From the IMG/VR virus record IMGVR_UViG_3300023179_000161, positions 1 through 49,935 of that record: a stretch of 49,935 nt of DNA. The stretch is one strand, 5' to 3'. Position 1 is the first letter of the stretch. The number at the start of each line of letters is the position of its first letter. Below are positions 8,076-32,879 of the stretch, one piece after another. A program made the translations under genes and the position numbers. The stretch is from a virus. Below the pieces are notes generated by a model that was not told the DNA's origin, did no database searches, and saw only the letters and a list, made by a program, of their open reading frames with translations.

Positions 8076-8083
8076 TATTTATG
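8076..8083 (-). promoter_or_regulatory. Late-promoter-like CATAAATA
   Basis: CATAAATA on the minus strand ends 12 nt upstream of the ATG at 8064 and overlaps the last codons of the 1242-residue gene. Confidence 0.42.
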
Positions 8084-11000: not shown

Positions 11001-11807
11001 TATAGCAGCTCGGGTAGAAGGTGTATTAAAATATTCTCCGGGGTAAGCTATAAAATCTGGAGCTGTTATAAAACTACTTACAAACTTAGCTGATAATGAT
11101 CTTTCAAATATGTGTGGGGAATACCATTTCGAGAAGGATCCAATAGCGCTTAAAGCAGATAAAACAATATTAACACTTGAAATGCATGGTGTAGATCTTC
11201 TAAAACTGAAAGTAGATAATGTAGTATATTTTGTACTTTGTTCGTTTAAAGTAAAATATGTTTTATAAAAATTTTTAGTGAAACTTGAAGATAGATTAAA
11301 AGATGTTGAACTTAACGAAAAAATAGCACTATAAGGTGTTGCAGAAGTTAATCGAAAAAAATAATAATCAGATTCTGTATTTTCGTAATTTAAAAAAGCA
11401 CTTAATGATACATAGGGAAAAGAATCATAATCAATACTATAAGTAGCAAAGGAAATTGATGATAAGGGTGTACCCGATAAAAATGTAGCATTAATACTTA
11501 AATTATATAGAGTATAATTTTCTATTAGATAGTTGTAGGTCGGAGCAGTAAATTTTGCAATAATAGTGCCAAAAGAAGATATAGGGGAAGTATCTACACC
11601 TGTGTAAGATAAACCAGAAAGATTGGTAATTGTTATCTCGGTGCCGGGATTATATAAAAATGACCATGAAATTAAACTTGAACCAGGCATTACTAACGTC
11701 GCAGGGGTAAAGGTAGTTCCTACTTTACTCATTAAAGTCGCAGTTAATGAACGTGTAAAAGGTTCATTATCGAAATCAATTGCGCTTATGGAAATACCGT
11801 GTTGCAT
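8079..11807 (-). CDS. Giant tail/baseplate structural protein, 1242 aa, PKD-like domains and beta-propeller
   Basis: A Ser/Thr/Tyr-rich, beta-dominated protein. The first ~650 residues are repeated Ig/PKD-like strands, with PKD-type signatures YAWKFGNFTD (~309) and SVTITFNDGTP (~580). A segment at ~676 (NDWAVADVFNSCIEKFYKNL) is typical of large virion proteins of marine myoviruses. At ~780-830 lies a Cys/Trp module (CLQKYCLLWQW ... TWKKTKSNQAY ... KWSYEPCE) also present in the 658-residue protein. Residues ~880-1120 look like an NHL-type beta-propeller, with repeats such as IKNICIDSQNRIIVLDA and PNDIHVDQLDNIWVTDIG. The C-terminus holds two related segments, NKSLQRLWDCIEIF and NRSLSYLWENFITL. 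No signal peptide. It is likely part of the distal tail or baseplate periphery. Confidence 0.75.
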   Translation of the reverse strand: MQHGISISAIDFDNEPFTRSLTATLMSKVGTTFTPATLVMPGSSLISWSFLYNPGTEITITNLSGLSYTGVDTSPISSFGTIIAKFTAPTYNYLIENYTLYNLSINATFLSGTPLSSISFATYSIDYDSFPYVSLSAFLNYENTESDYYFFRLTSATPYSAIFSLSSTSFNLSSSFTKNFYKTYFTLNEQSTKYTTLSTFSFRRSTPCISSVNIVLSALSAIGSFSKWYSPHIFERSLSAKFVSSFITAPDFIAYPGEYFNTPSTRAAITPANLANSPGLGFIGEGHTEYIYLSTIPVAGPITKYAWKFGNFTDVYTGVVDSTDFTNFSSVVGISSTIGSYPRIPIQLQACNTTFPSGSPLFYRDDTTGEKTFYPYINSTVSPEGDELSTSKYFSSIVINPYPSVKYSFNSGISSTINLPVDISTSNFGYSIPVTYTASLSVKVSNGSDFTNNPTYYTLSSTVWSLNTSLWEAPTQISLPALNPAEYLYSLRLSGDGFIPSTVSYYNDTLVYLNATKFITCKINVPSYGGSSDWRSKTTNLNLSYKITSKAPSELKFYTPNKYVLTGVPVKFENISTRTNSLCSVTITFNDGTPTIVLSGAKVSNSFYTTFNSLGPKTIKATGIINYTPTPITLTLTDVVVVTPEYDSVYPDSYYSTSSPFSLPFSNKIQIAPNDWAVADVFNSCIEKFYKNLQYLESLGNPYNGTYSDYIGWLGPLITTTSTTLETVTSCPIHTWQDVNCNIPPYRNITWNNALSAGGYVGSFASCGTWKQQTCIGSRIAPNCLQKYCLLWQWYARKQDNSNIDITWKKTKSNQAYAKKWSYEPCELSPPTNCDEGHWNVNIPKLNRYYTPLSFCDLNRLYTSPFYQTQTLNSCNYCSVVSRNNIIYAAQKTQVKVLSSNYEATFYSFENLFDDVTAFSNIKNICIDSQNRIIVLDADLTQVGIYTITNNTWELFTSWGGVGSVNSKSRFLSPNDIHVDQLDNIWVTDIGLKAIKGFSNTGTWLITIKNDEFVTDVPISLCVDSQNNIHVLTSKQISVYTTQGTYLYSYDYKSYVSGTAVRINTSYNREIIYLCTNNQVIKFFRNGAFNGYIIKSKRCVNNITSVYQDEYRNLLITSNQNILKFSDLMKISPLKGKLPDYYWKLEDLYIHPEEYVQNWVYNKSLQRLWDCIEIFRSTVMFTNNQGICKQYKPPKYLKEDILVGQNEIVTSTVINRSLSYLWENFITLIDFFDSSCPTRTTT

Positions 11808-15207: not shown

Positions 15208-17184
15208 TTAACAACCTTGTACTGTATATATTTGATATGTTGTTCCATTATTTCCTGAATAAAGTACAGGTAAATTATAACTATCTTGTAAACTGTTACT
15301 AGGACGGGTAGGTATTGTTGGAAAAATATTATTTTGCGAGCTAGATGTATTTGTTACAAATGAACATGTATTATTACATTGAATACTATATAAAACTCCG
15401 CTAGAATTGTTTTTACTCTTTAAAAATTTTATTTCATTTGCTGAAAGAGTTGGAAGATATATAGGACCAATTGTAGTAGAACAGGAACTATAAGATCCTG
15501 TATTTCCACTATAAGCAGTAATTGACGGATAAAAAACGGGGTATATGTTTATATCTCTACTATATGTATGTACAATATCAAAATTACGCGGACAAAGCGG
15601 GTCGTCGACATACGATCGAGTATTAACAAGTTCTGGATCTGTTGAATTACTACCTTGACGCACAACAGTTTTTATAGGTGTACCGTCACCGAGGTCCCAA
15701 TCAATTCTATCTATAGGGAAAGATCCGGTTTTTGTTGCGAGTGGCGATAACCTAACAGTGAGATCATATATACCTGTATAAGGACGAGTTTCACAATGCA
15801 GTTGTGCTGTTGGTAGAATTTCTTTAACTTCAACAATATATTGTTTTGTTGAAGTTTGAGTATTAGTAGAAGTAGAAAGAGTTGTATTAAAATTACATAG
15901 ATACTCGCTTGGTTCATAGAACCATCTTTTTTGAAATACATTATTAGTTTTTGCTTGTTCCCAAGTAACTCTATTAGCGAGATTACTACAAGCAAGTTTT
16001 TCCCATATCCAATATTTACAATATTTTTGTAAACACCTATCGAGTGGTGTTATAATAGCTTGAATGGTACTTACTGTAATAGTTTGAGTTTGAGTCAAAG
16101 AAACAGAGTATTTACCCGGCATTATAAATATATGTTCAATAGGGGTAGTACAAGACAGTGATACTAGATTTCCGCTATCATTATAATAATCTCCAAAATT
16201 CCAATTATAATTTATATCATTATCAATAGAATTTGTTGGGGGGTTATTAGCAGTTGAGTTATTGTCAAAAACAACTTTTAAGCCTGGAGCGTAACCTGAA
16301 ATGTAAGAAGTTGTTGCATTTGCTTTAATCCAAGTTTGACCAGAAGTAGCATATAAAGTTTCATCAATTGCATCCGGTATGCTAGTTTGTAGAATGTATA
16401 TAGGTACGTTTACCGGTAAAGTATCGTAAAATGCAAGTCTACGTCTTGCAACATCATGTACATAAGAAGAAGTTGGCTGAAACACCCCACCAACATTTAC
16501 TATAAAATCAGAATTTTGTGTTATTTTATAGTTGGGATCTCCTGCTAAAGATAAAAATGCTGTAGGAGATGTTAATTCGTAATTCCAATTTGCTGGTGCA
16601 TTAAGTTTAGGTAAATATGTCACTAATAATATAGTATTATCAGGTACTGGAGAACTAAAATTAACAGTTTGATTGGAGGTATTTATAGTATATGATTCTG
16701 TAGATTGTAATATACCATCAATAGAAACAATATAATATTTTGAATCAGCTGAAAGGGAAGTAGTGCCAGGTAAATAAAAAGATCTTGTTTGAAAAGGGGC
16801 TGAAGAAACCCATGTTTTAAGAGAACTAATATATTCACTTGGTAAGAAAGGATTGAATAACTGTACAACATTAATTTGTATATTTTGAGCTGATACACTA
16901 TTTGTTATTAAAAACTGAAGTGTTTTATTAGTAGCATTTATTGTGTAGGTGTTTGGGGGCTGTATTACACCGCCTACACTAACAATATAGTTATTTTCAT
17001 TATCAGATAAAGGTATTGTGCTTGCTAATTTATAAGTATTAGTTGATAGTAGAGTTGTATTAGTATTTAAAAGTGTGGTAAGAAAAGCTTTTTCAAAGGC
17101 AAAAGTAGATAATGGTGTACCAGAATCCCAAGTGTAATTACTAGGTACTGTTAAACCTGAAATAATTGAAAAGTTTGTTGTCAT
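15208..17184 (-). CDS. Tail structural protein, 658 aa, triple-repeat cassette plus PKD domains
   Basis: Residues ~31-280 are copy A of the 250-residue cassette shared with the next two upstream genes; it contains three units with the core YIVSVGGVIQPP...Y-x-I. A PKD-like domain follows at ~300-375 (INYNWNFGDYYND, then HIFIMPGKYSVSL). The Cys/Trp module at 383-428 (CLQKYCKYWIW ... RVTWEQAKTNNVF ... RWFYEPSE) is shared with the 1242-residue protein. A second PKD-like domain lies at ~458-575 (DRIDWDLGDGTP, DIVHTYSRDINIYP). The C-terminus is Cys/Ser/Asn-rich. The ATG overlaps the stop of the upstream 1913-residue gene (ATGA), so the two are translationally coupled. Probably a fibre or baseplate-peripheral adhesin. 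Confidence 0.75.
   Translation of the reverse strand: MTTNFSIISGLTVPSNYTWDSGTPLSTFAFEKAFLTTLLNTNTTLLSTNTYKLASTIPLSDNENNYIVSVGGVIQPPNTYTINATNKTLQFLITNSVSAQNIQINVVQLFNPFLPSEYISSLKTWVSSAPFQTRSFYLPGTTSLSADSKYYIVSIDGILQSTESYTINTSNQTVNFSSPVPDNTILLVTYLPKLNAPANWNYELTSPTAFLSLAGDPNYKITQNSDFIVNVGGVFQPTSSYVHDVARRRLAFYDTLPVNVPIYILQTSIPDAIDETLYATSGQTWIKANATTSYISGYAPGLKVVFDNNSTANNPPTNSIDNDINYNWNFGDYYNDSGNLVSLSCTTPIEHIFIMPGKYSVSLTQTQTITVSTIQAIITPLDRCLQKYCKYWIWEKLACSNLANRVTWEQAKTNNVFQKRWFYEPSEYLCNFNTTLSTSTNTQTSTKQYIVEVKEILPTAQLHCETRPYTGIYDLTVRLSPLATKTGSFPIDRIDWDLGDGTPIKTVVRQGSNSTDPELVNTRSYVDDPLCPRNFDIVHTYSRDINIYPVFYPSITAYSGNTGSYSSCSTTIGPIYLPTLSANEIKFLKSKNNSSGVLYSIQCNNTCSFVTNTSSSQNNIFPTIPTRPSNSLQDSYNLPVLYSGNNGTTYQIYTVQGC
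15901..16038 (-). other. Cys/Trp module shared by two tail proteins (copy in 658-aa protein)
   Basis: Encodes residues 383-428. Pattern: CLQKYC-x2-W-x-W, about 15 residues, (V/I)-T-W-x3-K-x-N, K-x-W-x-YEP-x-E. The second copy lies at about 9330-9470 in the 1242-residue protein. Spacing and Trp/Cys positions are preserved although the flanking domains differ. Confidence 0.7.
16345..17094 (-). repeat. Cassette copy A (~250 codons, three internal units)
   Basis: N-terminal position in the 658-residue protein. Units share Y-x-(V/I)-S-(V/I)-(G/D)-G-(V/I)-(I/L)-Q near strand 1 and (T/R)-(L/V)-x-F near strand 3. Most diverged of the three copies except near its 5' end, where it resembles copy C closely. 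Confidence 0.85.
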
Positions 17185-20100
17185 ATTGCGTTAACTGTTA
17201 AAGTATAATATGTTGGGCCTACATTATTATTTACGATAAAAGATAAAGAATATACCCCTGTGGTAGGTATTTGACCGGTAACTAGACCAGTTCTTGATAG
17301 ATTAGCCCAAACCGGAAATGATAATTTTGTATAAGTAGCTGACCCGTTTTCAGCTATTAACTGCACGCTGAGAGGGGTTGAATATTTTTGTGTAACTAAT
17401 AACGGTTGTGTAATAACAGGTGGTAGTGTTTGGCTTGTTTTACTTCGTGGGTTATAAACTGTTATATTTTTTATTTCTAAAACTGAGTAATCATTAATAA
17501 AAATTTCTATAATAGTGTCTTGTTTATTTTGATTTTGTGCTTGTAAGGTTAATAAAAATTCCTTTTTAAGATTATTGTAGGTTAATAAAACAGTATTAAT
17601 AGTCTGTAAGTTTAAAGAAGAAAGGGTATTTAAAGTTGTAATATCAGCTTGTTTAAATGGGAAAATTTTAGTAAGCTTTATAGAGTTTAAATCGTATAGG
17701 TATAATTCAGGATATATTATTTTATTAAACATACCACAGGTGCCTTGAACTATCTGTTTGCGATTTGGGAAAAACCACGGTTCGCTTATTTTTGCAAATA
17801 AAGACTCATCAACTGTATCAGGTATACTAGTTTGCGTAATAATAATTGGTACATTAGTGGGTAAAGTGTCGTTAAAAACTAGACGGCGTCTTGCGACATC
17901 ATGAGTATAAGAAATTGTAGGTTGAAACACTCCACCGATGTTTACAAAAAAGTTAGAGTCTAAACTCGCTTTATAAGCAATATCTCCGGTTAGTGGTAAT
18001 AGTTTTGTAGATGTTTTTAATTCATATGTCCAACTAGCAGGTGTATTAAGTTTAGGTAAAAAGATTATCTGTATAATTGTATTTTCAATTACAGGGGAAC
18101 TAAAGTTTATTGTCCTATTAGAAGTGTTTATTGAATATGTGTAAGGAGATTGTAAAACACCGTCTATAGAAACAAAATAATATTTTGAGCTTGTAGAAAG
18201 ATCGTTAGTTCCTGGTAAATTGAAAGATGTAGTTTGAAGAGGGGATGTTAATATCCAGGTAGTAATTGTATTAATATATTCTTCAGGTAAAAACGGATTA
18301 AAAAGTTGTACAACATTTACCCGGGCACTTGGATGAGGTGTAATATTTGGATCTAAGAATCGTATTGTACGATTTTCTGTATCAATTACAAAACTACTTG
18401 GTGGTTGTATTACACCGCCTACACTAACAATATAGTTATTTTTGTTATTTGATAAAAAGTATGTACCACTGAGATTATAACTATTATTTGATAATAGTGG
18501 TGTTGTAATATCAAATGTTGTAACAAAAAAAGCTTTTTGAGATAAAGCAGTATTTATATTACTTTCATTCAAATTAGTTGTTACAGGTAGTGCTAAAGAA
18601 ATTACACGAGCGTCATCAATTAAACTAAAAATATAATCATTTTCATATTCATATATTAAACGTTCAAAAATGATATTATTTTTTGTTTGTATATACAAAG
18701 TATCATAAAAAACATCTAGTCGATAAACACCGCTACCCGTTAATTCATCATATAATAATGTGTTTTTGTAGGTGTCAAATACTCCAGATAAAGCTTTAGA
18801 GGCTGGTAAAACAGCTTGAGAATTTTTACGAACCCAAATTTCTCCTGATGTATTTTTACGATTTCCTGGCTGTACACCGGTTAAGTTTTTATACACACCA
18901 TACTGATTACCAAATATATCTGTTGCCCAATCATCAAGCTGTAACCCAAAACGTTTTAAAATTTGATCATCAGCCCACTTATCAACATTAACCTCCCCGG
19001 TAAATGAAACAGGGTAATTTTGTACATCTTTCCAATCTGTGTCAGTAGGTCCAGTCCAGGGTGTTTGTAAAGAGCTTGGTGTTATTAAACCATATCTGTA
19101 ACGAGGGTTAGATTCATAACGAGTTTGATAAGGTATAAATTTTTGATATTTTTTAAAGATGTTTTTATTAACTGTACCAGCGATTGTACCCGCAATTACC
19201 GGTTCTTTTACCCAAGTATTATTATCATATAAAAGCTCAAAAGGTGTTTGTTGATCTTCTTTAGTTAAACCTCTACCAGCAATATAACTATTATAATTTT
19301 CATAAATGCCTGTTAGAGCAGATGAAGTTATAGTATTATTAATTGTGTAATTCTTATTAATGTATTGTGTGGCCCCTAAATTTTGTGGCACAAAGAACCC
19401 ACCAAAATTTACTACACTAGATAAACTTTGTACTGTAGGTAAAATAGCAACATTTGGGTAATACCGAGAAGGGAAATTAGCCCAAGGTTGTTTTATATTA
19501 GTAATTTTATCTCCTGTAATTGTAGTAGTAACAGTATTTGATATAATAGGTGTTGCAGATATTGACCAAGTAAACGGTGAGATTGCGTTATAATAAACTT
19601 CAACGGGGTTATTATTAATGTAGTTTTCAAGTTGTAAAGAAGAGCTTGATAATGTAGCTTCTACAATAAGTTCTAGTGGATTATTATCTAAAATAACATT
19701 TAAGTTAGAAACAGAGGTAGTAGTGAATTTAAGAGTAGACCAAATATTTTTATCAACTGTAACTCTTTGTTTTAATGGTTGGGACCAAACCATATTAGAA
19801 TCTGTTGTACGCTCATATTCAACATAATTTCCTGTATCTAATGTTAAATTAGAAATTTCAGGTTGAGAAATAATATTATAACCGTCTATAAGACGTAAAT
19901 AATTACCCCAAGAATTTATACCTTTATAACCAGTATATTCATTTTTAGTGTTTGCAGTAGTTGCCCAAAAAGGTTTAGCTCCATAATTTCCTAAAACTGT
20001 ATTTGATGTATAGCTTGAAGTATTATAATCCCACCCATAAAGTGGTGTATTAAGTACAAAACCAGGTGCAGGTGTTAAGAACGCTGTTGTAGGATAAACA

Positions 20101-22922
20101 ATAGTTGTACCAGATATTGCTGTTACAGCAGGTATGTTATTAAATGTATAAAGCGCGGTATTAGCGTAATAAAAAGATGATGTGTTAGGGAAAATAGTTG
20201 CAGGGGGTATTGATGCAGCAGACATTACAACTACTGCAAAAGTATATATTCCGGTTAGTATTGGAGTTATTGCTAAAGATTGAGATTTATAAGTATAAGA
20301 ATTTCCAAGCGGGTCAGTTACAGTCCAAGAAATGACTTTAACAAAATTATTATAAAGGGTATTAACAGCTGGATACTGAGAGTTACTTTGTCCAATAACT
20401 GTACTATTAGGTTGTGGGTAATTTAATATAAATGATTGTGTTGGAGTATTAGGGTCGCTGTAGCCGTCGGGTACCGTTAAATAATCATAGTTAGTCCATA
20501 TTGATCCTTTATTTTGATTTATTATTTGTGTTTGTAATGCTGAATTAGCTTTTGTAAAAGTAGGTCCTAAAATATGGGAGTAAATTAAATTTTCTCCTGA
20601 ATATAATGTCATAGGCGAAGGAAGATTAGTACTAACCCAATTTCCGCTATTATTTTTAACTGCTTGTATCCATTTAAAATTGTTTGAGTTAAAATTATTA
20701 TAAGAGTAACGCACACAATAATCAGGAAATGAATTAGTTTGAGCATTTTGATCTCTTATATTTTGTCTAAAGTAAAAATATGATTTACCTGTTTTTAATA
20801 TTAGACCTGAGGCTCCATTACCGGTTTTCCAGGTACCGTCCCCAAAACCTATCTTACTATTTGTTTTAAACCATGCAAATTTATTAGTCTGTATTAGTCG
20901 AGAAAAATCTGTGCTATTAGTAAACGGATCTTCAACTATGTAATCACAGTATGCTGCATTATCGGTATATGTATCTCCTGGATGACCGAAAGGTGTAAAT
21001 AAAACGCTGCGACAGGTACATAAACTATGATCCTTATAAGTTGTATTTGAAGTTGTTATAAACTTACAGTCTAAAGCGTGATTTAACGATAGAAAAACAT
21101 TATTAATATTTGTATCATTTTGACCCTGCCAAATAAAACGGGTAAAGTTACCTGGGGTAAATACACTATTAAGACCGGGCTGCAGTGGCATTGTGATTCG
21201 TAGTTCAGGATAATATTTTGTTGCACTGGATAGCCAGGCTCCCTCAGTAGCATATGATCGGTTAAGTTGATAGTTTCCAACTTTTAAGAATAAATCAGCA
21301 CTAGATAATGCATCTGATGCAACAGCATTATTAGACTTAATACTCGAAAGAGGTGTGGGAAGACAGGCTTGAGCCGCATCTTCAGGTATTAACGGAAAAG
21401 AACGACTTGTATCTATAGAGCCATATGGCCAAACAATGGTAGTATCAGAATTTGGCGCTATAGATATATCAGTTTGTGTAAATTTATACAGCCAGGCTTC
21501 AGACGTATCTCCAGTATAGGAAGAGTCTGTATATAGTGGTGGTACAGGCCAAATTCGTATTTTATCAGCTAATTGATATTGAATACTAGGATAAGCTTTA
21601 TTATCTATTAAAGTTGTAGAATTTATATTAATAGATTCGTGAGATGTTAAAGTAATGACTGATGACCAATATATATTTTCTACAGCTTTTTTAGCATCTT
21701 TTGGTAAGTAGAAAAAACGTGAATTTGTTGTTAGGTCATAACCCGTCCAATCTAAATCTCCTCCTGAAAGACCAAAACCAGGAAAAGGAAAACGAAACTT
21801 TGTTGTTTTTTTAGCATTTAAAGTTGCTTTCATGGTTTGATTAGATTCATCATACGGGACATATCTAAGCCAAGCACCTTGTATATCTTTAGCTGTTTTA
21901 ACAAAAATAGTATCAGCTGTTTCTAATGTTTCTCCTCCTGTACCTAAATTTTCAATACCTGCAGCACTTAATGCTATAGGTTCGTACCGTGGTAAATCGG
22001 TAACGTTGTTTTGATATGGACTATTTGGCCAATAAAAATAGTTATTACCAGTTTCTATAGAAATGTTATAAAAATCTTGTTGTGTACTAGTTTTATAAAA
22101 TAGAGAAGTAAATTTATCATTATTTAAATATTTGTTTGTTATTTCTTCAGAGGTTTTTATAGAATCAATAATTTGATTTCCGGATAATTCAAATATTCCG
22201 GTTTTATAAACCCATTCAGTAGAAGTTAATGATAATCCTAAACTAGTAAAATAATCTTCTAATGTTGAAAAATTAATATCATAATATGCAGAAACCGGTA
22301 AAGTTGGAGAATGATCTAAATATTGAAAGGTATCATATAATTCTTCTATTTCAATATTAATAGATTCTTGTATAGCACTTAAGTCTGGTACTGATTTCCA
22401 AACAGAGGCTGGTAAAGTTATATAAGTGTTTGGTTTTTTTGTATAATTTGATAACAAAAAATCTTGTAGTTCAAGATTAATACCAGAATCAGTACCTACT
22501 AAATTATATTTTATTTTTGACTGTTTTACATGTTCACGAAGATTTAAATAATAAAGAGCTATATCTTTTAACTTTTTTGCAAAATATGGTATTGCTAAAA
22601 GTAATTCTTTTTCATTTTGTAAGTTAATACCGTTATACCATGATTGTATTTCTTCTTCGTTAAAAAATAATTGTAGTTGCTGTAATAAATTTAAATAGTT
22701 TAATTTTATTTGAGTTTTTTTATCAATTGTATTTGTTGCTTTATTTTTATACCAATTTGTTAAATATTGATTATACAGACTATACTCTTGACCAGGTATA
22801 ATACCTTTATGAGTACTAGACCAATCACTAAACGAAAAAGGGTAGTCAATATCCTGTATTCCGGTTGTTATGCGAGTGGGTTGCGCATAGCGTTGTAATT
22901 GCTGTTGATTGCCAATATTCAC
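17181..22922 (-). CDS. Giant tail/baseplate structural protein, 1913 aa
   Basis: The largest gene here, starting at GTG 22922; no in-frame ATG is near. The first ~60 residues are followed by a helical segment (~65-160: KLNYLNLLQQLQLFF, ELLLAIPYFAKKLKDIALYY, HVKQSKIKYNLVG) of a kind seen in large virion proteins of marine T4-like phages, perhaps the baseplate-docking part. A long beta-rich region rich in Asn, Tyr and Ser fills ~200-1450. Residues ~1460-1709 are cassette copy B. The last ~80 residues (PPVITQPLLVTQKYSTPLSV, then GLVTGQIPTTGVYSLSF) form an Ig-like putative He_PIG domain. No signal peptide or catalytic motif. It follows the 1311-residue gene by 5 bases in one operon. Likely a baseplate wedge periphery or fibre protein. 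Confidence 0.75.
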   Translation of the reverse strand: MNIGNQQQLQRYAQPTRITTGIQDIDYPFSFSDWSSTHKGIIPGQEYSLYNQYLTNWYKNKATNTIDKKTQIKLNYLNLLQQLQLFFNEEEIQSWYNGINLQNEKELLLAIPYFAKKLKDIALYYLNLREHVKQSKIKYNLVGTDSGINLELQDFLLSNYTKKPNTYITLPASVWKSVPDLSAIQESINIEIEELYDTFQYLDHSPTLPVSAYYDINFSTLEDYFTSLGLSLTSTEWVYKTGIFELSGNQIIDSIKTSEEITNKYLNNDKFTSLFYKTSTQQDFYNISIETGNNYFYWPNSPYQNNVTDLPRYEPIALSAAGIENLGTGGETLETADTIFVKTAKDIQGAWLRYVPYDESNQTMKATLNAKKTTKFRFPFPGFGLSGGDLDWTGYDLTTNSRFFYLPKDAKKAVENIYWSSVITLTSHESININSTTLIDNKAYPSIQYQLADKIRIWPVPPLYTDSSYTGDTSEAWLYKFTQTDISIAPNSDTTIVWPYGSIDTSRSFPLIPEDAAQACLPTPLSSIKSNNAVASDALSSADLFLKVGNYQLNRSYATEGAWLSSATKYYPELRITMPLQPGLNSVFTPGNFTRFIWQGQNDTNINNVFLSLNHALDCKFITTSNTTYKDHSLCTCRSVLFTPFGHPGDTYTDNAAYCDYIVEDPFTNSTDFSRLIQTNKFAWFKTNSKIGFGDGTWKTGNGASGLILKTGKSYFYFRQNIRDQNAQTNSFPDYCVRYSYNNFNSNNFKWIQAVKNNSGNWVSTNLPSPMTLYSGENLIYSHILGPTFTKANSALQTQIINQNKGSIWTNYDYLTVPDGYSDPNTPTQSFILNYPQPNSTVIGQSNSQYPAVNTLYNNFVKVISWTVTDPLGNSYTYKSQSLAITPILTGIYTFAVVVMSAASIPPATIFPNTSSFYYANTALYTFNNIPAVTAISGTTIVYPTTAFLTPAPGFVLNTPLYGWDYNTSSYTSNTVLGNYGAKPFWATTANTKNEYTGYKGINSWGNYLRLIDGYNIISQPEISNLTLDTGNYVEYERTTDSNMVWSQPLKQRVTVDKNIWSTLKFTTTSVSNLNVILDNNPLELIVEATLSSSSLQLENYINNNPVEVYYNAISPFTWSISATPIISNTVTTTITGDKITNIKQPWANFPSRYYPNVAILPTVQSLSSVVNFGGFFVPQNLGATQYINKNYTINNTITSSALTGIYENYNSYIAGRGLTKEDQQTPFELLYDNNTWVKEPVIAGTIAGTVNKNIFKKYQKFIPYQTRYESNPRYRYGLITPSSLQTPWTGPTDTDWKDVQNYPVSFTGEVNVDKWADDQILKRFGLQLDDWATDIFGNQYGVYKNLTGVQPGNRKNTSGEIWVRKNSQAVLPASKALSGVFDTYKNTLLYDELTGSGVYRLDVFYDTLYIQTKNNIIFERLIYEYENDYIFSLIDDARVISLALPVTTNLNESNINTALSQKAFFVTTFDITTPLLSNNSYNLSGTYFLSNNKNNYIVSVGGVIQPPSSFVIDTENRTIRFLDPNITPHPSARVNVVQLFNPFLPEEYINTITTWILTSPLQTTSFNLPGTNDLSTSSKYYFVSIDGVLQSPYTYSINTSNRTINFSSPVIENTIIQIIFLPKLNTPASWTYELKTSTKLLPLTGDIAYKASLDSNFFVNIGGVFQPTISYTHDVARRRLVFNDTLPTNVPIIITQTSIPDTVDESLFAKISEPWFFPNRKQIVQGTCGMFNKIIYPELYLYDLNSIKLTKIFPFKQADITTLNTLSSLNLQTINTVLLTYNNLKKEFLLTLQAQNQNKQDTIIEIFINDYSVLEIKNITVYNPRSKTSQTLPPVITQPLLVTQKYSTPLSVQLIAENGSATYTKLSFPVWANLSRTGLVTGQIPTTGVYSLSFIVNNNVGPTYYTLTVNAI
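17795..18543 (-). repeat. Cassette copy B (~250 codons)
   Basis: Located in the last quarter of the 1913-residue protein. It shares a 50-base identical block (17836-17885) with copy C (24660-24709) and a further identical ~45-base block around 17906-17950 (24731-24775 in copy C). Between these blocks the sequence differs. Confidence 0.88.
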
Positions 22923-22927
22923 TTAAA

Positions 22928-25900
22928 TTATTTAAGAAACAAATTTTTCGTTAACAAGTAATTAAATGTTAATTCGAGTATGCCGTTATCCCCATACCAT
23001 TCCTCAAAACTTGAATTTGTCGGGTTTAAGGTAGTAAACTCAGAATCCCAATCTATAATATTTTCAATGTAGTTATTAGCATAATAAGGTTTAAAGGTAA
23101 AAAATTGGTAGTTATTTGTAATAGGTTGAGCAAAATTATAACCTTGAAGTTCAGAAAGCGGGTAAACAAATGTATTGTTTTGTATCTGTATAGTTAAAAG
23201 ATTATATGTATTATCAAGTTTTGATCTTAAAATAATTTGTTTTCCTGCAGTTAAATATGTAGTATATGGGTTAAGCTCTTCACCTAAAGATCTATTTAAA
23301 ACAGGTTTAACATCTTGTGTACCAAAAAGTTTATTTTTAGAAATAGAACCTATATCAAGCATTCTTTTAATTTCAGCAGGTATTTCTGTTATATAATTTG
23401 CCGCGAAAACATTTGTTTCATTAGCAAGAGATATTAATTGTTCAATATTACATGTATCAATATCAGCGTGATTGTATAAAAAGTTTGCTATTTTTTCATA
23501 AACATTTTGACCTAAATCTTCACTAGTACTTGATTCGGCATTACCAACAGTAGCAGGAATAAATTTGTCCCACAAAAATGTATTACTTTTGAGTATTTCG
23601 GGTAACGCTAAAGATTTTAAGTATTCAGCATTATTAAAAGATTCATTCACCCGTCGAATATTATTTTTATTTTCAAAGTTTATTATACTGAACGGTGTTG
23701 CTTTTCCTGTAATAATATCTGGTTCTTGATTTGAAAAAATATATTTTTGATACCATTTTATTCCAGTCCAGTCCCCACTAGCTTGAGCAGAACGATATTG
23801 ATATATAGGGTTACTTTCAGTAATAGTTGCTCCGGTGTTTAAATCAACATAATACCCAAATACACTATTAGGGCGTACAACAAAGGAGTAAATATCTGAA
23901 TTAGTAAAATTAGGGGTTGAGTTAATTATAGTATTAATAGTATTTGTGTACGAGTTTATAAACCATACTCGATTAAACCCATCAATACCGAGTCCGCCTA
24001 TTTCTTCATCATTTTTAAAAACATCAGGAGATGTGCTTAAGGTTGCTACACTAGATACTGAAGTAGCCTGACTATTATTAATTGTCCATAAACGAAGAGT
24101 ATCTGTATTTAAATTATAATACCCTAACCCGTTTATACTATGGGTAAACCATAAGTTGTTATAGTTATCAATAGCAAGATAGCTCGGACGAGGTATACCT
24201 GTTATAGATTTTATTAATGTATAATTATCATTATCATATAATTGTATATTTCCAGTTGCTGATAAAACGTTTGTTATATTTGCAACCCAAATATTATTAT
24301 CTAAAGTTATTGCTAAACTTACTGGCACAGAATAATTTTTAAGATTAATTTGTTTTAAAATATTGCCGCTTGAATCGTATTTTAACAAACAAGAACATAA
24401 AGGATGTGCATAAGTTACCCAACAGTTATTATTTCTATCCGTTTCAGCTGTAGAGGGTTTTAATAAAAAGTCACTATTAAACTCTTCGCTACCTGGTGTA
24501 GGTAAGCCAGGTATTTTAATAACATTAAAATTAGAATCAAATTTAACAATAAAAAGATTATTAAAAAATGTAATCCAAAAATTATAATTTTCATCCATAG
24601 TAACTGATGAAGGTGTAAAATAACCTACGCTTTCTATTTCATCAGGTATGCTAGTTTGTGTAATAATAATTGGTACATTAGTGGGTAAAGTGTCGTTAAA
24701 AACTAGACGACTGTTTATAATGTCGTGGGTATAAGAAATTGTAGGTTGAAACACTCCACCGATGTTTACAAAAAAACTAGAATCTTGAGTTGCCTTATAA
24801 GCAATATCCCCTGTTAGTGGTAAAAAGTTGGTTGAGGTGTTTAATTTGTACGTCCAACTGGCAGGTATATCAAGCTTTGGTAAAAAAGTAGCTTGTATAG
24901 TTGTATTTTCAGGTATTGGAAAGTTAAAATTTATTGTTCTATTTGTAATATTTAAAGTGTAAGTAAATGAAGACTGTAAAACGCCATCTATAGAAACAAA
25001 ATAATATTTTGAGTTAGTTAAAAGAGATGTAGTTCCCGGTAAATAAAAAGACGTAGTTTGAAGAGGTGATGATGATACCCAGGTAGTGATTGTATTAATA
25101 TACTCTTCTGGTAAAAGCGGATTAAAAAGTTGTACAACGTTTATGCGTGCATTAGAATTCGGTGTAATATTTGGTACTAAAAATTGTATTGTTCTAGTTA
25201 TAGAATTTATATGATAGCTATTTTGAGGCTGTATTACACCATCTACACTAACAATAAAGTTGTTTTCATTATCAGATAAAGGTATAATACTACTACTGAG
25301 ATTATAACTGTTAGTAGACAACAACGGTGTAGTAATATTAAATGTATTAACAAAAAAAGCTTTTTGTGTTTCGAGACTAGATAAATTAAAAGTTTTTAAC
25401 AAAACCCCGTTAGATGAAAATTTATAAATACGTTCTAATTCTGCATCACAAGCTATTACACTATAATCTCTTGGATCTATAGCCATGCTATAAATTCCAG
25501 AAAACCCTGACATATTGTAATTAAAAGTGTCATTACTGTTTTTTGTAGGTACAGGGTATTGTTTAACATCTCCATATGCTAAAATGTTTAAAGCTTTATA
25601 GGCATTTATTTCCGGACAAGAATTAATAATTGGGGCTAAACTTATTTTATTAAGAGCGCCTCTTTCTGGGTTAGAAACAAAAACAAAAGGATTGGGGAGA
25701 TAATTATTTAACCGTTCTTGAAATACTGTAGGTTGAGGTATATTAGCGCTAACTTGTAAAACAGTATTTGTTGCGGTTTGAGAAGGAGTAAGAGTAGTAA
25801 ATATATAACCCCCGGTACGAAAATTGTTTTGATCAGTTGTTTGAAAATAAAGCGGGGCTTCATCTAATGTGTATTGAGACTTTGTTAATTTAGTTAATGT

Positions 25901-26863
25901 AGCACTAATAGGGTAATTAGAGCCAATTAAATTTGTTGGTGGGTACGTAAAAACAATATCTGACAATTCGTTTTCTGCACCGTTAAGGTTATTAATTCGA
26001 TTGTAATGGGTAGTTATTAAAAAGGGTATTTTGCTATCTTTCCAATATTGAGAATACATATTTTTAAGATAGTTACTAGTAACTTTAAGTTGATTGGGGT
26101 ATACATTATTAACATACCAAACTGCAGCTCCCTTAACGTTTTTATTATTAGTATATGTCGGATAAGGATAAACACTAGATTCTAACGGATAAGGAAATGC
26201 TGATGTTTGTAAAGTGCAGGTTAATAAAAGAGGACAACTCTGACCATAATATCCGGGTGATTTTGAATCAATAAAGTAAAATTCTAACTCTGCTGAAAGA
26301 GCGACTACCCGTTTATTTTTATAAATGGGGATACCTTTTGCAGAAAGACTTGTTATAACATTATCTTTAGTATCAGTAAAACGCCATGTTGGGTTTAAAA
26401 AAGACCATCTTTTTGGTACATACTGATAAGGTATAGATTGAGAATTTATACAAAATAAATCTACTACAATAGGGGCTGGCGCTATAGAGGATAAAAGATT
26501 AACTTGAGATGTTAATACATTAATTTTAAAAGGTTTGTCTGTTTTCTTTCCAGGGTTAGGGTATTCATCTGGTATTTGAGTAAATAAAATATAATCTCTA
26601 AACAAAAGATTAGCTGTTATTTGTTTTTGAAAAGTATCTGTTTCACCGAGTATATTAGCGGAAGTTATTTTTATTGTGTAGGTGCCTGGATACTGATAAA
26701 CATGAGTTGGTTGCTGTATATTATAAACGTAGTTAGAATTATCACCAAAATCCCAAACAGTGTATTTAACCCTTGCAGTTGATGTAGTTGTATTTACAAA
26801 AGTAAAATCAGTACTAAGAACATCACCTACACTCGGGGTTACAGTAAAACTTACATCAATCAT
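22928..26863 (-). CDS. Tail/baseplate structural protein, 1311 aa, PKD, split propeller, cassette
   Basis: N-terminal residues 1-90 form a clear PKD domain (YTVWDFGDNSNYVYN, then HVYQYPGTYTIKIT). Residues ~460-495 contain one propeller-type blade (YSMAIDPRDYSVIACDAELE). Cassette copy C follows at ~498-745, then more blades (SSVTMDENYNFWITFFN, AETDRNNNCWVTYAH, LAITLDNNIWVANI, LAIDNYNNLWFTHS). The C-terminal ~240 residues are a conserved-looking domain: NIRRVNESFNNAEYLKSLAL, YEKIANFLYNHADIDTC, DWDSEFTTLNPTNSSFEEWY and LTKNLFLK at the very end. Position directly after gp6 parallels T4 gp7, but homology to gp7 is not claimed. Probably a virion baseplate protein with exposed adhesive modules. Confidence 0.75.
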   Translation of the reverse strand: MIDVSFTVTPSVGDVLSTDFTFVNTTTSTARVKYTVWDFGDNSNYVYNIQQPTHVYQYPGTYTIKITSANILGETDTFQKQITANLLFRDYILFTQIPDEYPNPGKKTDKPFKINVLTSQVNLLSSIAPAPIVVDLFCINSQSIPYQYVPKRWSFLNPTWRFTDTKDNVITSLSAKGIPIYKNKRVVALSAELEFYFIDSKSPGYYGQSCPLLLTCTLQTSAFPYPLESSVYPYPTYTNNKNVKGAAVWYVNNVYPNQLKVTSNYLKNMYSQYWKDSKIPFLITTHYNRINNLNGAENELSDIVFTYPPTNLIGSNYPISATLTKLTKSQYTLDEAPLYFQTTDQNNFRTGGYIFTTLTPSQTATNTVLQVSANIPQPTVFQERLNNYLPNPFVFVSNPERGALNKISLAPIINSCPEINAYKALNILAYGDVKQYPVPTKNSNDTFNYNMSGFSGIYSMAIDPRDYSVIACDAELERIYKFSSNGVLLKTFNLSSLETQKAFFVNTFNITTPLLSTNSYNLSSSIIPLSDNENNFIVSVDGVIQPQNSYHINSITRTIQFLVPNITPNSNARINVVQLFNPLLPEEYINTITTWVSSSPLQTTSFYLPGTTSLLTNSKYYFVSIDGVLQSSFTYTLNITNRTINFNFPIPENTTIQATFLPKLDIPASWTYKLNTSTNFLPLTGDIAYKATQDSSFFVNIGGVFQPTISYTHDIINSRLVFNDTLPTNVPIIITQTSIPDEIESVGYFTPSSVTMDENYNFWITFFNNLFIVKFDSNFNVIKIPGLPTPGSEEFNSDFLLKPSTAETDRNNNCWVTYAHPLCSCLLKYDSSGNILKQINLKNYSVPVSLAITLDNNIWVANITNVLSATGNIQLYDNDNYTLIKSITGIPRPSYLAIDNYNNLWFTHSINGLGYYNLNTDTLRLWTINNSQATSVSSVATLSTSPDVFKNDEEIGGLGIDGFNRVWFINSYTNTINTIINSTPNFTNSDIYSFVVRPNSVFGYYVDLNTGATITESNPIYQYRSAQASGDWTGIKWYQKYIFSNQEPDIITGKATPFSIINFENKNNIRRVNESFNNAEYLKSLALPEILKSNTFLWDKFIPATVGNAESSTSEDLGQNVYEKIANFLYNHADIDTCNIEQLISLANETNVFAANYITEIPAEIKRMLDIGSISKNKLFGTQDVKPVLNRSLGEELNPYTTYLTAGKQIILRSKLDNTYNLLTIQIQNNTFVYPLSELQGYNFAQPITNNYQFFTFKPYYANNYIENIIDWDSEFTTLNPTNSSFEEWYGDNGILELTFNYLLTKNLFLK
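24628..25372 (-). repeat. Cassette copy C (~248 codons)
   Basis: Lies between propeller-like blades of the 1311-residue protein. Its downstream two-thirds closely match copy B, while the beginning (SDNENNFIVSVDGVIQP) matches copy A better, giving a mosaic. Confidence 0.88.
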
Positions 26864-26865
26864 AA

Positions 26866-28701
26866 TTAATACTCAATAGTTTCAAAATTTATTGTCTGAG
26901 ATGCAATTGTAATTTTTTGTGCTAAGTTATTAATATTTTCAAAATATAAATACTCAAAATTACGAAGAGAAACATTATTAGTAATAAATTGTTGATCGGC
27001 AAGTGGGTATATTGGATTTTTAATTAAAAATGATAAACCTTCTACTTTAGTATTACTATCATATAAATTAACAGTGTAAAACGTTTCAACACCGTCAACT
27101 TCTAAAATTTGTTGTGTTAAATTTTTAACATCAAATACTTGACCTAATTTAATACTGTCTCTTGAAAAATAAGTTGTAAATACGTTAACTATACCGTTTA
27201 TTATTGATTGATCACTACGACGAGAGTTAGGTTTTTTAACTATTTCAAGACCGTAATTACTTTCTTCAAATTCGAGTTCTGAACTATCTATTAATTTTGA
27301 TAAACTAAAATCAACAGCTTTATAAACAGGATCTACAAAAACGGTTTCTGTAGTAGCCATTTTACTGTTTAAAACAGAAGAATGAATTAATTCTTTTTGA
27401 GCAGGTACTAAATAATTTAAATTTTCAAAATTACTAGAACGTGGTACAACAATTAAATAAATGTTATTAAAATTACAAGAGTCAGCATATAAAACTTGAT
27501 TTAAAAGGGCTCGTTCGGTTTTTTGAGGGTCTTGTATACCGATATCATAAAAATATTTTAAATAACTTGAAACATAATCCCAGTTATTCATAGCTTTAAC
27601 TTCGGTTATAAGGTTAGCAAAATTTGTAGTTATAAATGTTTCATAATCTCTTGTTGTTACTAATCTATATTGTGTTTTATAATTAGATGGCGCTGCTTGA
27701 CGGATTTCTTCTGTTGTCTCTATTTCTTTAACAGGTGTGGAACTACTTTCATTATCAAATAGTAAGTAACTTGTTTCATTAGAATTTATTAAACGATATT
27801 GATCGTATAATATATCAGTTAAAATTGTATTAAATTGTGGAGTATTATAAAGAACAAAAAATGTTCGATTAAAACTTAATGCACGGGCACCAATTTCCCC
27901 TTTTGTTCCAGATGATTGAAGGTAATAAATTGCTACAATATCCCCGGGTTCAAGTTTTTTTCCGTTTATATTATTACCAAATTTAATTTCGTATCGTTTA
28001 TTACCATTAAGTCTAATTTCGTATTTTTTAGCGATACTACTTTCTAAATACAAACTAGAGGTTTTACTATATTGTTCCCAAACCCCGGTTGATTTTGGTT
28101 TAACATAAACATCTATATTAAAGTGATCAACGTTTTCATTTTTTGTGTTTAAAATTAAAAGTTCATTATTGTCTCCAATAGCTGTGTAAAGAGGATATTC
28201 TTCATACTTGCCTTGGAATAATAATTTTTGTCGAGAAATTTCATCTAAACTTTCTATTCCGCCAACGTTAAATTTATTAAAAGTAATTTCTTCGTTAAAA
28301 GAAAAAGGTATATTGTTTATAACAATATAAGAGTAACGTGGTATTGTATAGATACCATTAGAAAAAGTTGTAGCAGAACATTTAAAACTTAACGTAGATG
28401 TTTGATAACCAATAGGAGAATAATCAACAAGTTTTACAATACGGTTCATATTTTCATAAAGCTGTGCTTCTGAAAACATAGATTCTGTTGAGGTTTTATT
28501 TAGGTAATATATTAAAGTATGATATGAATAAGCTATAATATCAATAATAGATGCTAAATTCGAGCCAATAAAATTTTGATCGGTAAAAACGTTTTGTTCG
28601 TTAAGACGGTCAATTATTAATTGACGCAAAGACATAGCGTCAAAAGCTATATACCCATCTTTAGGTATAGAAAAATTATCTGTATTATTAGTTGTTGACA
28701 T
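26866..28701 (-). CDS. 6: Baseplate wedge protein gp6-like
   Basis: A 611-residue protein matching T4 gp6 (660 aa) in layout: an N-terminal segment LRQLIIDRLNEQNVFTDQNF, then SNLASIIDIIAYSYHTLIYYLNKTSTES, and YENMNRIVKLVDYSPIGYQTSTLSF. Mid-protein are KRYEIKFGNNINGKKLEPGDIV and YRLVTTRDYETFITTNFANLI, the baseplate_J-like core; T4 has RCVTATDYDTFVSERFGSII at the matching place. In T4, gp6 dimers form the inner ring that ties the six wedges together and opens on contraction. It is encoded directly after gp25, its structural partner, with one base between them. The C-terminal third shows strand-rich gp6-specific sequence (DVKNLTQQILEVDGVETFY). Confidence 0.92.
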   Translation of the reverse strand: MSTTNNTDNFSIPKDGYIAFDAMSLRQLIIDRLNEQNVFTDQNFIGSNLASIIDIIAYSYHTLIYYLNKTSTESMFSEAQLYENMNRIVKLVDYSPIGYQTSTLSFKCSATTFSNGIYTIPRYSYIVINNIPFSFNEEITFNKFNVGGIESLDEISRQKLLFQGKYEEYPLYTAIGDNNELLILNTKNENVDHFNIDVYVKPKSTGVWEQYSKTSSLYLESSIAKKYEIRLNGNKRYEIKFGNNINGKKLEPGDIVAIYYLQSSGTKGEIGARALSFNRTFFVLYNTPQFNTILTDILYDQYRLINSNETSYLLFDNESSSTPVKEIETTEEIRQAAPSNYKTQYRLVTTRDYETFITTNFANLITEVKAMNNWDYVSSYLKYFYDIGIQDPQKTERALLNQVLYADSCNFNNIYLIVVPRSSNFENLNYLVPAQKELIHSSVLNSKMATTETVFVDPVYKAVDFSLSKLIDSSELEFEESNYGLEIVKKPNSRRSDQSIINGIVNVFTTYFSRDSIKLGQVFDVKNLTQQILEVDGVETFYTVNLYDSNTKVEGLSFLIKNPIYPLADQQFITNNVSLRNFEYLYFENINNLAQKITIASQTINFETIEY

Positions 28702-29876: not shown

Positions 29877-32800
29877 ATGATTACAAACTATACCTCTGAG
29901 CTGTTACCGGAAAAGTTTTTACAAAAATATATCAATAAAGAAGTACCTTGGGGCTTCAATGGTTTAGGATATATTGTCTATAAAAGAACATATGCTAGAA
30001 AAATAGAGGGTACCGATAATACAGAGGAGTGGTGGCAGACTGTTGCACGCTGTATTAACGGCGCACAAGAAATTGGTGCTGACTATACTTCGGAAGAAGC
30101 ACAACGCTTGTATGATTTAGTTTTTAATCTTAAGTGTAACTTTGCTGGTAGAATGCTTTGGCAGCTGGGTACCGAGACGGTTAAGAAATTTGGTGCTAAC
30201 TCTTTGCTTAACTGTTTTAGTGGAGAAACAGAATTTATTACAGCGCAAGGTATTAAACAATTAAAAGATTGTGTTGGTCAAGATATAGAAGTTTTAGCGG
30301 CAAAAGGAGGTTGGAAAAAAGCTACGGTAGAAAAATTTGGTAAACAGCAACTACTAAAACTTACTATAAAGAGAGGTAGAACAGAAAAAGATATTTTTAC
30401 AACAGCAAATCATAGATGGTTTGCTCGCTCAGAAACTAGAAAAACTACTGATTTATATTCAGGGTTTAATGAGCTAGTTACAACAGACCTAAGACCCGGC
30501 ATGCACTTAAAATATATGTTTGGTCAGGGAATTAAAAATTTACTTCCCTCGTCATATGGTGTTAGTCATGGTATAACATATGGAGACGGTAATTACAATT
30601 CAGCTACAAAATATTGTCAAGTAACTCTTTGTGGAAAGAAAAACGAAAAACTTAGAAAATGGTTTGCTCCTAGTCCAGTTTATGAAGTTCCGAACGCATG
30701 TAATGAAGGGGCATTAGTGATATCACATCTTCCAGGTAACTGGAAAGAGGCGCCATCTTTTAATGAATCAAAACCATATTTGTTAGGTTTCTTAATGGGA
30801 TATTTTGCTGCTGATGGTGGTATTTCAAAAAGAAATGGCTTCCCGACACTTTATAGTAAAAAGCAGAAAGATATACTTTTAGTAAGAGATATATGTTCTT
30901 TGTTGGGTATAGGTACTAAAAACATTAAGAGTCAAATAATTGAATCTGAATTTAATACTAATAATACCCCTTTATATAATATAGGTCTTGAACCGACTGA
31001 TCTTACTGCTGATTTTTTTATTATACCTGAACATAAAGAAAAGTATTTACTACATTATACCGAAACCGGTCAAGATCTTAATCTTTTAAATTCCCAACAA
31101 GGTTCGCGAACACATTGGGAAGTCGTATCTGTAGAGAAAACAAATCGGGAAGAAATAGTATATTGTGTTGTTGAGCCTGAAACACATACATTTACCTTGG
31201 TTGATAATATTTTAACAGGTAATTGCTGGTATGTCTCAATTAACGATCCGAAGACCTTTCTCTTTATCTTTGAAAATTTAATGCTCGGGGGCGGAGTTGG
31301 TTTTTCTATTCGTAGAGAAGACATTCATGAACTACCTAAGATCAAGAAAGGGGTATCAATTGAACATCAGTGCACTAAAGATGCTGACTTTATTGTTCCG
31401 GATTCTCGTTCTGGCTGGGTTGAATTGCTTCGTAAAGTTCTTGATGCTTATTATACAACAGGTAAATCGTTCTCTTATTCGACTATCTTAGTTAGAGGGT
31501 CAGGTGAACGTATTTCAGGTTTTGGTGGTACAGCTTCTGGACCTGGTATTCTTATTGAGGGTATTGAAAAGATTTCTAAGATCTTTCAATCAAGAGAAGG
31601 TAAAAAGCTTCGTTCTACAGATGTTCTCGATATCTGTAACATTATTGGTTCGATTGTTGTAGCTGGTAACGTTCGTCGCTCGGCACAGATTGCTCTTGGA
31701 GATCCAGACGATTATCTTTATCTCAGAGCTAAAAACTGGTCGTTAGGTAACATTCCTAACTGGAGAGCTATGTCCAATAATACAATCTATGCTGATGACT
31801 TCTCTCATATTTCTAGTGAGATTTGGACGAATGGTTATATTGTAGATAAAGAGACAGGTTTTGCTAAAGGTGAACCTTATGGCTTCTTTAATCTTCCTTT
31901 ATCCCAAAAGTTTGGACGTCTTAAAGACGGACCTATGAAGAGTTCTAAGCTCTATCCTACAAACGAAGATAACGTACTAGGTACTAATCCTTGTGCTGAA
32001 ATTTCGTTAACATCTTATGAGTGCTGTAATTTGTCTGAGCTTTATCTTAATAATATCTCTTCTGTTGAAGAGCTAATCGATTGTACAACCCTTCTTTATA
32101 AAACTCAAAAAGCAACAGCAGCAATGCCCTTTATTCATGAAGAGACGAACAAGATTGTTCATAAAAACATGCGTTTAGGTCTTGGTGTTACCGGCATCTG
32201 TCAGTGTTCAGATGAGAAGATTGAATGGCTTGATAAGGGTTATGAAGCACTTCGTAAGTTTGATAAAGAGTGGTCAGCTAAGAAAGGCTATCCTGAATCA
32301 ATCAAACTAACAACAGTTAAACCATCTGGTACTTTGTCCTTATTAGCTGGTTCAACACCCGGTGTACATCCTGCTTATTCACCTTTCTATATCCGTAGAG
32401 TCAGAATGGGTTCAGGAGATAAGCTCGTCGGTATTTGTCGGGAGCTTGGTTACCACGTTGAATACGTTCGTGGGTTTGATGGTAAAGATGACCATACAAC
32501 TGTTGTAGTAGAGTTTCCTTGTTATGCAGGTGAAAGCTGTGTTGTGGCTAAGTCTATGTCGGCTATCCAGCAATTAGACATTGTTAAGAAGCTTCAAACT
32601 TATTGGTCAGATAATGCAGTCTCGGTTACTGTTTATTACCGTCAAGAAGAGCTAGAAGAGATTAAAGCATGGCTTGAACATAATTATGAGACTTCAATTA
32701 AATCAGTTTCGTTTTTGCTTCACAGTGAGCACGGATTTGCTCAAGCTCCTTACGAAGAAATAACAGAGGAAGAGTATAAGAAGCTCTCCGAGAAAGTAAA

Positions 32801-32879
32801 GTCAATTACTTCGATTAATATCGGTCAAGGAGATATTGAAAGTATGGAATGTGCTGGTGGCGCTTGTCCTATTAAGTAA
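29877..32879 (+). CDS. nrdJ: Class II (B12-dependent) ribonucleoside-triphosphate reductase with intein
   Basis: A 1000-residue precursor; removing the 337-residue intein leaves a 663-residue reductase. It makes deoxyribonucleotides using adenosylcobalamin, like the monomeric Lactobacillus RTPR. The NPCAE motif (Cys 706, Glu 708, Asn 704) corresponds to the thiyl-radical Cys408/Glu410/Asn406 set, and ECCNLSEL (Cys 717) to redox Cys419. The intein ends before Cys 450, which corresponds to Cys119, the other redox Cys. The C-terminal CAGGACPIK (Cys 992, Cys 997) is the shuttle pair. LGTGGGVGFS-type glycine loops are represented by LGGGVGFSIR. It lies upstream of dUTPase on the same strand, a joint dNTP supply set. 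Confidence 0.95.
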   Translation: MITNYTSELLPEKFLQKYINKEVPWGFNGLGYIVYKRTYARKIEGTDNTEEWWQTVARCINGAQEIGADYTSEEAQRLYDLVFNLKCNFAGRMLWQLGTETVKKFGANSLLNCFSGETEFITAQGIKQLKDCVGQDIEVLAAKGGWKKATVEKFGKQQLLKLTIKRGRTEKDIFTTANHRWFARSETRKTTDLYSGFNELVTTDLRPGMHLKYMFGQGIKNLLPSSYGVSHGITYGDGNYNSATKYCQVTLCGKKNEKLRKWFAPSPVYEVPNACNEGALVISHLPGNWKEAPSFNESKPYLLGFLMGYFAADGGISKRNGFPTLYSKKQKDILLVRDICSLLGIGTKNIKSQIIESEFNTNNTPLYNIGLEPTDLTADFFIIPEHKEKYLLHYTETGQDLNLLNSQQGSRTHWEVVSVEKTNREEIVYCVVEPETHTFTLVDNILTGNCWYVSINDPKTFLFIFENLMLGGGVGFSIRREDIHELPKIKKGVSIEHQCTKDADFIVPDSRSGWVELLRKVLDAYYTTGKSFSYSTILVRGSGERISGFGGTASGPGILIEGIEKISKIFQSREGKKLRSTDVLDICNIIGSIVVAGNVRRSAQIALGDPDDYLYLRAKNWSLGNIPNWRAMSNNTIYADDFSHISSEIWTNGYIVDKETGFAKGEPYGFFNLPLSQKFGRLKDGPMKSSKLYPTNEDNVLGTNPCAEISLTSYECCNLSELYLNNISSVEELIDCTTLLYKTQKATAAMPFIHEETNKIVHKNMRLGLGVTGICQCSDEKIEWLDKGYEALRKFDKEWSAKKGYPESIKLTTVKPSGTLSLLAGSTPGVHPAYSPFYIRRVRMGSGDKLVGICRELGYHVEYVRGFDGKDDHTTVVVEFPCYAGESCVVAKSMSAIQQLDIVKKLQTYWSDNAVSVTVYYRQEELEEIKAWLEHNYETSIKSVSFLLHSEHGFAQAPYEEITEEEYKKLSEKVKSITSINIGQGDIESMECAGGACPIK
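30213..31223 (+). mobile_element. LAGLIDADG-type intein in the reductase
   Basis: Precursor residues 113-449 (337 aa). The first residue is Cys (CFSGETEF, block A). Block B is TTANHRWF with the conserved T-x-x-H. The endonuclease signature YLLGFLMGYFAADGGI is a LAGLIDADG block C. The C-terminal splice block reads THTFTLVDNILTGN, followed by Cys 450 as +1 nucleophile. The penultimate residue is Gly rather than the usual His. Joining the exteins gives NSLLN-CWYVSIND, which is the normal reductase sequence. Confidence 0.93.

Follow-up and report, generated by a model that had tools for sequence, protein, structure and literature searches.

Three consecutive tail genes of the virus studied here, designated A, B and C, each carry one copy of a homologous cassette of about 241 residues. 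The reading that we favour, and that we consider moderately probable, is that both genes downstream of C gained a copy of its module, a change confined to this lineage, and that the copies then went through a long constrained divergence with some homogenisation of B and C, and serve a docking role. The window, meaning the whole stretch of DNA that was analysed, is a virus record of 49,935 bases with T4-like morphogenesis genes, among them those for the terminase large subunit and the tail sheath. Because the terminase is less than 60% identical to that of every matching phage record (about 36% for the best among the matches listed), the virus is a member of an uncultured group. The genes, cassettes and approximate units are as follows.

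26866..28701, minus strand: baseplate wedge protein, conserved neighbour of C
22928..26863, minus strand: gene C (open reading frame), tail/baseplate protein of 1311 residues with an N-terminal PKD-like domain and a modelled NHL-type propeller interrupted by cassette C
24641..25366, minus strand: cassette C, residues 500-741, probable source copy
25115-25339, 24872-25090 and 24644-24862, minus strand: units of cassette C
17181..22922, minus strand: gene B (open reading frame), tail protein of 1913 residues
17817..18539, minus strand: cassette B, residues 1462-1702, an insertion
18291-18512, 18048-18266 and 17820-18038, minus strand: units of cassette B
15208..17184, minus strand: gene A (open reading frame), tail protein of 658 residues with a PKD domain
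16372..17094, minus strand: cassette A, residues 31-271, an insertion
16846-17067, 16603-16821 and 16375-16593, minus strand: units of cassette A

The open reading frames and the alignment agree with the original prediction that each of these consecutive genes holds one cassette, and by residue coordinates the cassette lies at the N-terminus of A, in the last quarter of B and in the middle of C, as had been proposed. The claim of three related units per cassette, nine overall, was also borne out: each unit has about 75 residues, and the unit profiles match one another at 97-99% probability in profile-profile comparison. Cassettes A and B are 60% identical in amino acids and 68% in nucleotides, A and C 62% and 69%, and B and C 75% and 79%, all far beyond chance (blastp 9e-81, 1e-79 and 4e-95). 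When the window was compared with itself by blastn, the three cassettes were the sole repeats, 68-80% identical and in the same orientation. The base composition of the cassettes is that of their host genes.

Two other origins were rejected. An assembly chimera was set aside, as the copies differ by 20-33% and each lies inside an intact gene with native flanks. A mobile element was likewise rejected; the cassette edges show no target duplications or inverted repeats, only chance repeats of 5-10 bp.

Other features of the window were recorded along the way. A second, shorter module of 44 residues (43% identical, E 2e-7, CLQKYC...W...YEP) is common to A (residues 384-427, 15904-16035) and the gene at 8079-11807 (residues 784-827), and the latter gene is also matched by the A genes of relatives. 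The plus-strand gene at 29877-32879 encodes a B12-dependent (class II) ribonucleotide reductase with a probable in-frame intein at about residues 115-449 (RNR_Alpha 4e-21, RNR-II_ins_dom 8e-10, LAGLIDADG_3 8e-5, and a weak Intein_splicing match). Among the head and neck genes, a 362-residue protein (2959-4047, minus strand) with several helix-turn-helix matches and DUF7487 (7e-18) is possibly a free-standing homing endonuclease.

Fold and possible function of the cassette

The model of the cassette was confident (pLDDT 89, pTM 0.83) and contained three units, the number found in all 14 cassettes compared, including an independent insertion in a related B gene. DUF4183 (PF13799) was detected in 11 of the 14 at E <= 0.05 (best 2.3e-7), mainly over the middle unit, and the window copies scored at or below its curated cut-off: the isolated C cassette reached 25.1 bits, equal to the cut-off of 25.1 bits, and the whole A and C proteins scored 16.1 and 14. 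The tail fibre family phrog_18673 (PHROG) was detected in six of the 14 (best 8e-7), and sequence searches of the PDB gave no significant match. With Foldseek, the best PDB match of the model was CBA120 TSP4-N335 (E 2e-5, probability 1.00), which extends over just part of the module (TMq 0.24). Tail fibre and baseplate proteins are among the best viral structure matches, several of which extend over the whole module (TMq 0.62-0.69).

The setting of cassette C was examined in a model of residues 400-1015 (pLDDT 75, pTM 0.59), which matches NHL propellers (E 2e-10). This suggests, with moderate confidence, that the cassette sits between blades of an NHL-type beta-propeller, located as follows in a moderate-confidence model.

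25373..25510, minus strand: predicted propeller blade of C immediately preceding the cassette, residues ~452-497
23864..24631, minus strand: other predicted propeller blades of C, following the cassette, residues ~745-1000

These matches suggest that the units belong with DUF4183 and T4 gp10 XD-like beta domains, both of which are assembly modules. The cassette most likely provides a platform on which another tail component docks or is assembled, and the description as a docking platform would suit it better than the "adhesin-like" receptor-binding module first proposed, given that the families nearest to it consist of fibre subunits (DUF4183) and assembly domains (gp10-like). The same duplication history could also have spread host-binding modules (adhesin or glycan-binding) that provide avidity for a receptor. 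Such a role would fit the tail location adjoining the baseplate wedge gene and the presence in neighbouring tail proteins of domains of the PKD-like and concanavalin-like types; we judge it rather unlikely, since the nearest relatives in sequence and fold are assembly modules and the copies are constrained and not diversified.

A more specific form of the docking reading, which we offer tentatively as a possibility with the odds against it, is that the cassette is a putative single-chain pseudo-trimer. Three XD/DUF4183-like units around a pseudo-threefold axis would present a docking face that is built elsewhere from three chains, and moving this platform between genes would multiply the attachment points on one baseplate. 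The invariable presence of three units, the confidence of the three-unit model and the whole-module structure matches favour this arrangement. Three other loci (L182:14185-15186, L161:11368-12363 and L166:12095-13099) are open frames of roughly 333 residues in which one unit of this family lies close to the C-terminus; as homotrimers, their products could show a three-unit head formed from three chains.

Distribution in relatives and probable order of copying

Related loci were retrieved from IMG/VR with the terminase (65 loci) and the wedge protein (80 loci) as baits, and the comparison of cassette presence rests on about 20 related IMG/VR loci. A search of IMG/VR with gene C returned one relative; gene B, cassette A and the three-cassette alignment returned none by that route, and a 299-residue gene was unsuccessful as bait. 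In addition, cassette A had no match at 1e-5 when 50,697 phage records were searched with tblastn, and one GTDB scan with a five-member cassette alignment gave no match; the 14-member alignment was too variable for a pattern search. The gene order wedge-C-B-A is kept in nearly all related loci that include the tail region, and in one of them (L194) additional sequence separates C from B. In a comparison of the window with L100 and L039 (G025), the terminase of G025 was 95% identical to that of the window, yet identity fell to about 40-48% for proteins A, B and C. The tail genes have thus undergone divergence or exchange far beyond that of the packaging genes.

The cassette is present in C of ten loci (L097, L098, L099, L100, L105, L124, L188, L189, L198 and L199) and missing from C in another ten (L101, L102, L190, L191, L192, L194, L196, L197, L200 and L201), of which L101 and L191 are near-copies. 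On a tree built from the remainder of C, its presence is clustered, and the pattern needs two or more gains or losses. The A orthologues (17) and the intact B orthologues (17) are all without a cassette at the sites occupied in the window. The window copies are 60-75% identical to one another in amino acids versus at most about 42% to the cassette of any relative, and they group together in the tree with weak support, B joining C. Because the three copies are closer to one another than to those of relatives, cassettes A and B are most simply explained as lineage-specific duplications of the module of C. The comparison with related genomes agrees with the original prediction in that the module was copied between genes; no relative has more than a single copy, unless an unrelated second one is counted. 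IMG/VR searches found no close strain carrying both the A and B copies, and no relative with the B copy alone, which would be the middle step.

In terms of the insertion sites, the cassette junctions are clean when compared with the relatives. The A proteins of relatives read M.T.F...VPSNY.WD.G.PL, a short linker and YISGYAPG, and cassette A lies inside that linker. Their B proteins read SL.LPV...L.REF...FAKVGETWFFP, and cassette B precedes the equivalent SLFAKISEPWFFP in the window. Cassette C lies between YKFSSNGVLLKTFNLSSL and FTPSSVTMDENYNFWI. Two short segments bear on the order of copying.

17775..17807, minus strand: native B junction ESLFAKISEPW, residues 1706-1716 (FAKVGETWFFP in relatives)
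16330..16362, minus strand: ETLYATSGQTW in A, residues 275-285, a likely scrap of the native flank of B carried with the copy

The second of these directly follows cassette A and resembles the native B junction and nothing in the A proteins of relatives. C is probably the source copy, as it is the sole cassette site shared with relatives, and cassette A was probably derived from B, as the best match of the A flank among 6740 in-frame windows is the corresponding place in B (28/48 bases; runner-up 26). We infer the order of the copying events from these two observations. Against this derivation stand the shortness of the flank match and the tree, in which B joins C. The derived residues shared by the copies, 12 by B and C and three by A and B, do not favour the derivation of A from B unless B and C were homogenised later; either that homogenisation extended over most of the cassette, or the footprint in the A flank arose by chance.

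The B orthologue of L188 has its own strongly diverged three-unit insertion (L188:12580-13305, plus strand). It lies after the GETWFFP..VCS motif, whereas cassette B of the window lies before that motif, and the difference in site indicates that the insertion in L188 is a separate event. This insertion shows that such modules do enter these genes, and together with the weak support for the window clade it lends something to the idea that cassettes A and B were acquired from another virus with a similar module and not from the C gene of the same genome. We regard this as improbable, given that the window copies are much closer to one another than to any other known cassette, that their composition is the same as that of the host genes and that the flank of A looks like that of B. 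An ancestral cassette in A, B and C is far less probable still: loss does occur, as C orthologues with and without the cassette are separated by at least two changes on the tree, but this explanation requires every relative seen to have lost the cassette from both A and B with the native linkers left in place, and the three window copies are closer to one another than to any C orthologue.

Age of the copies and exchange between them

The overall dS was 0.72 for B and C, 1.23 for A and B, and 1.18 for A and C; dN was 0.14-0.29 and dN/dS about 0.2. The copies are old and under purifying selection. Four blocks of identity stand out on this background.

17836..17885 = 24660..24709: 50 bases identical in B and C, exact
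17905..17951 = 24729..24775: 47 bases identical in B and C
16961..16997 = 18406..18442: 37 bases identical in A and B
16994-17016 = 25263-25285: 23 bases identical in A and C, adjoining the 37-base A/B block

The first block had been predicted as it was found, and the second, which had been put at about 45 bases, is slightly longer. Recombination was assessed by permutation and 3SEQ-like tests in place of GARD. Where B and C encode the same residue, the positions with identical codons were clustered (like-neighbour P 0.003, and 0.006 under permutation within amino-acid classes). The two longest runs of identical codons gave P 0.018 (0.013 within amino-acid classes) and the longest run alone P 0.1; when silent sites were taken from A, B and C together, the two longest runs in which B equals C gave P 0.02. 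The dS of B and C was 0.43 over the last 60 codons versus 0.85 over the first ~180. Local clustering of silent identities, as expected from gene conversion between paralogues, was found for B and C only; silent identities were not clustered between A and B or between A and C (P > 0.25), which leaves the predicted exchange unsupported where A is involved.

The predicted resemblance of C to A near its start received moderate support, with P 0.0007 for a mosaic C composed of stretches like A and stretches like B in one of six 3SEQ-like tests, before correction for the six; these tests used all sites, so selection could contribute. In summary, the mosaicism is real but modest, and the B/C clustering lies mostly in the last unit. 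One homogenised tract in B and C is reasonably supported, and the homogenisation probably occurred by gene conversion or recombination. Of the exchange between genes first proposed, the copying of the module and the homogenisation of B and C remain.

The original prediction had gone on to suggest an intragenomic system for diversifying receptor-binding modules. A diversity-generating retroelement is ruled out for the window, where neither a reverse transcriptase match (PF00078) nor a template or variable repeat by self-blastn was detected, and invertase-driven switching of tail genes is ruled out likewise, with no resolvase/invertase serine recombinase match (PF00239) and all cassettes in the same orientation; the record may be a fragment. 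Conversion, moreover, makes copies more alike and not more diverse. An active system that repeatedly shuffles the cassettes, as the identical 50- and 47-base blocks and the clustered silent identities of B and C might suggest, is thus very improbable in view of the age and constraint of the copies, the lack of clustering with A, the absence from the record of a reverse transcriptase, resolvase or template repeat, and the at most one copy, or unrelated second one, in relatives.

On the reading that we favour, the starting copy would be a three-unit structural module between two propeller blades of C, and this module would have been copied into the two genes just downstream of C in the lineage of this virus only. 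The copying from C to B probably came first, followed by that from B to A, with a few codons of the flank of B. A long divergence of the copies under purifying selection would have followed, in which B and C were partly homogenised, most recently in the last unit and probably by gene conversion or recombination. Three neighbouring tail proteins may now present related docking sites.

Comparison with known systems

Before and after states in related viruses make this a well-resolved case of a tail domain copied as a unit into neighbouring genes. If the docking reading is true, the case shows how a virus can gain further attachment points from a domain that it already has. It also indicates that stretches of local identity in repeated tail modules are not by themselves a sign of an active diversification device.

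Among the closest parallels are the T4 gp10-like XD domains of CBA120 and RaK2. Those of CBA120 TSP4 bind partner tailspikes (PMC8825819), and such domains in RaK2 have been proposed to branch fibres (PMC10253068). CBA120 TSP4 and TSP2 (XD2/XD3) and RaK2 gp528 and gp531-533 resemble the cassette in having tandem small beta domains in tail proteins. However, their XD domains are N-terminal in trimeric tailspikes and number one to five per chain, whereas the cassette always has three units and is internal in other tail proteins; the likeness to CBA120 TSP4 covers only part of the module. The DUF4183 domains of F-ENA trimerise and stack, and F-Anchor-3 has three in one chain (PMC11952670). Most of the cassettes (11 of 14) match DUF4183 in sequence, but F-ENA are bacterial spore fibres of Bacillota.

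Tail-associated domain arrays are also formed by the tandem BACON repeats of crAss-like phages, whose origin lies in the duplication of domains or in the transfer of individual ones (PMC6949934). BACON is a different domain and its arrays grow within proteins, whereas here a fixed three-unit block is found in three neighbouring genes. In Kuttervirus, the same module occurs on different tailspike genes (TSP1, TSP3 and TSP4), and recombination between genes has been proposed (PMC8432352). There the C-terminal receptor-binding part moves; in the virus of the window it is an internal, assembly-like part. In this company, the three cassettes look like a new example of modular tail evolution of a kind that is already known.
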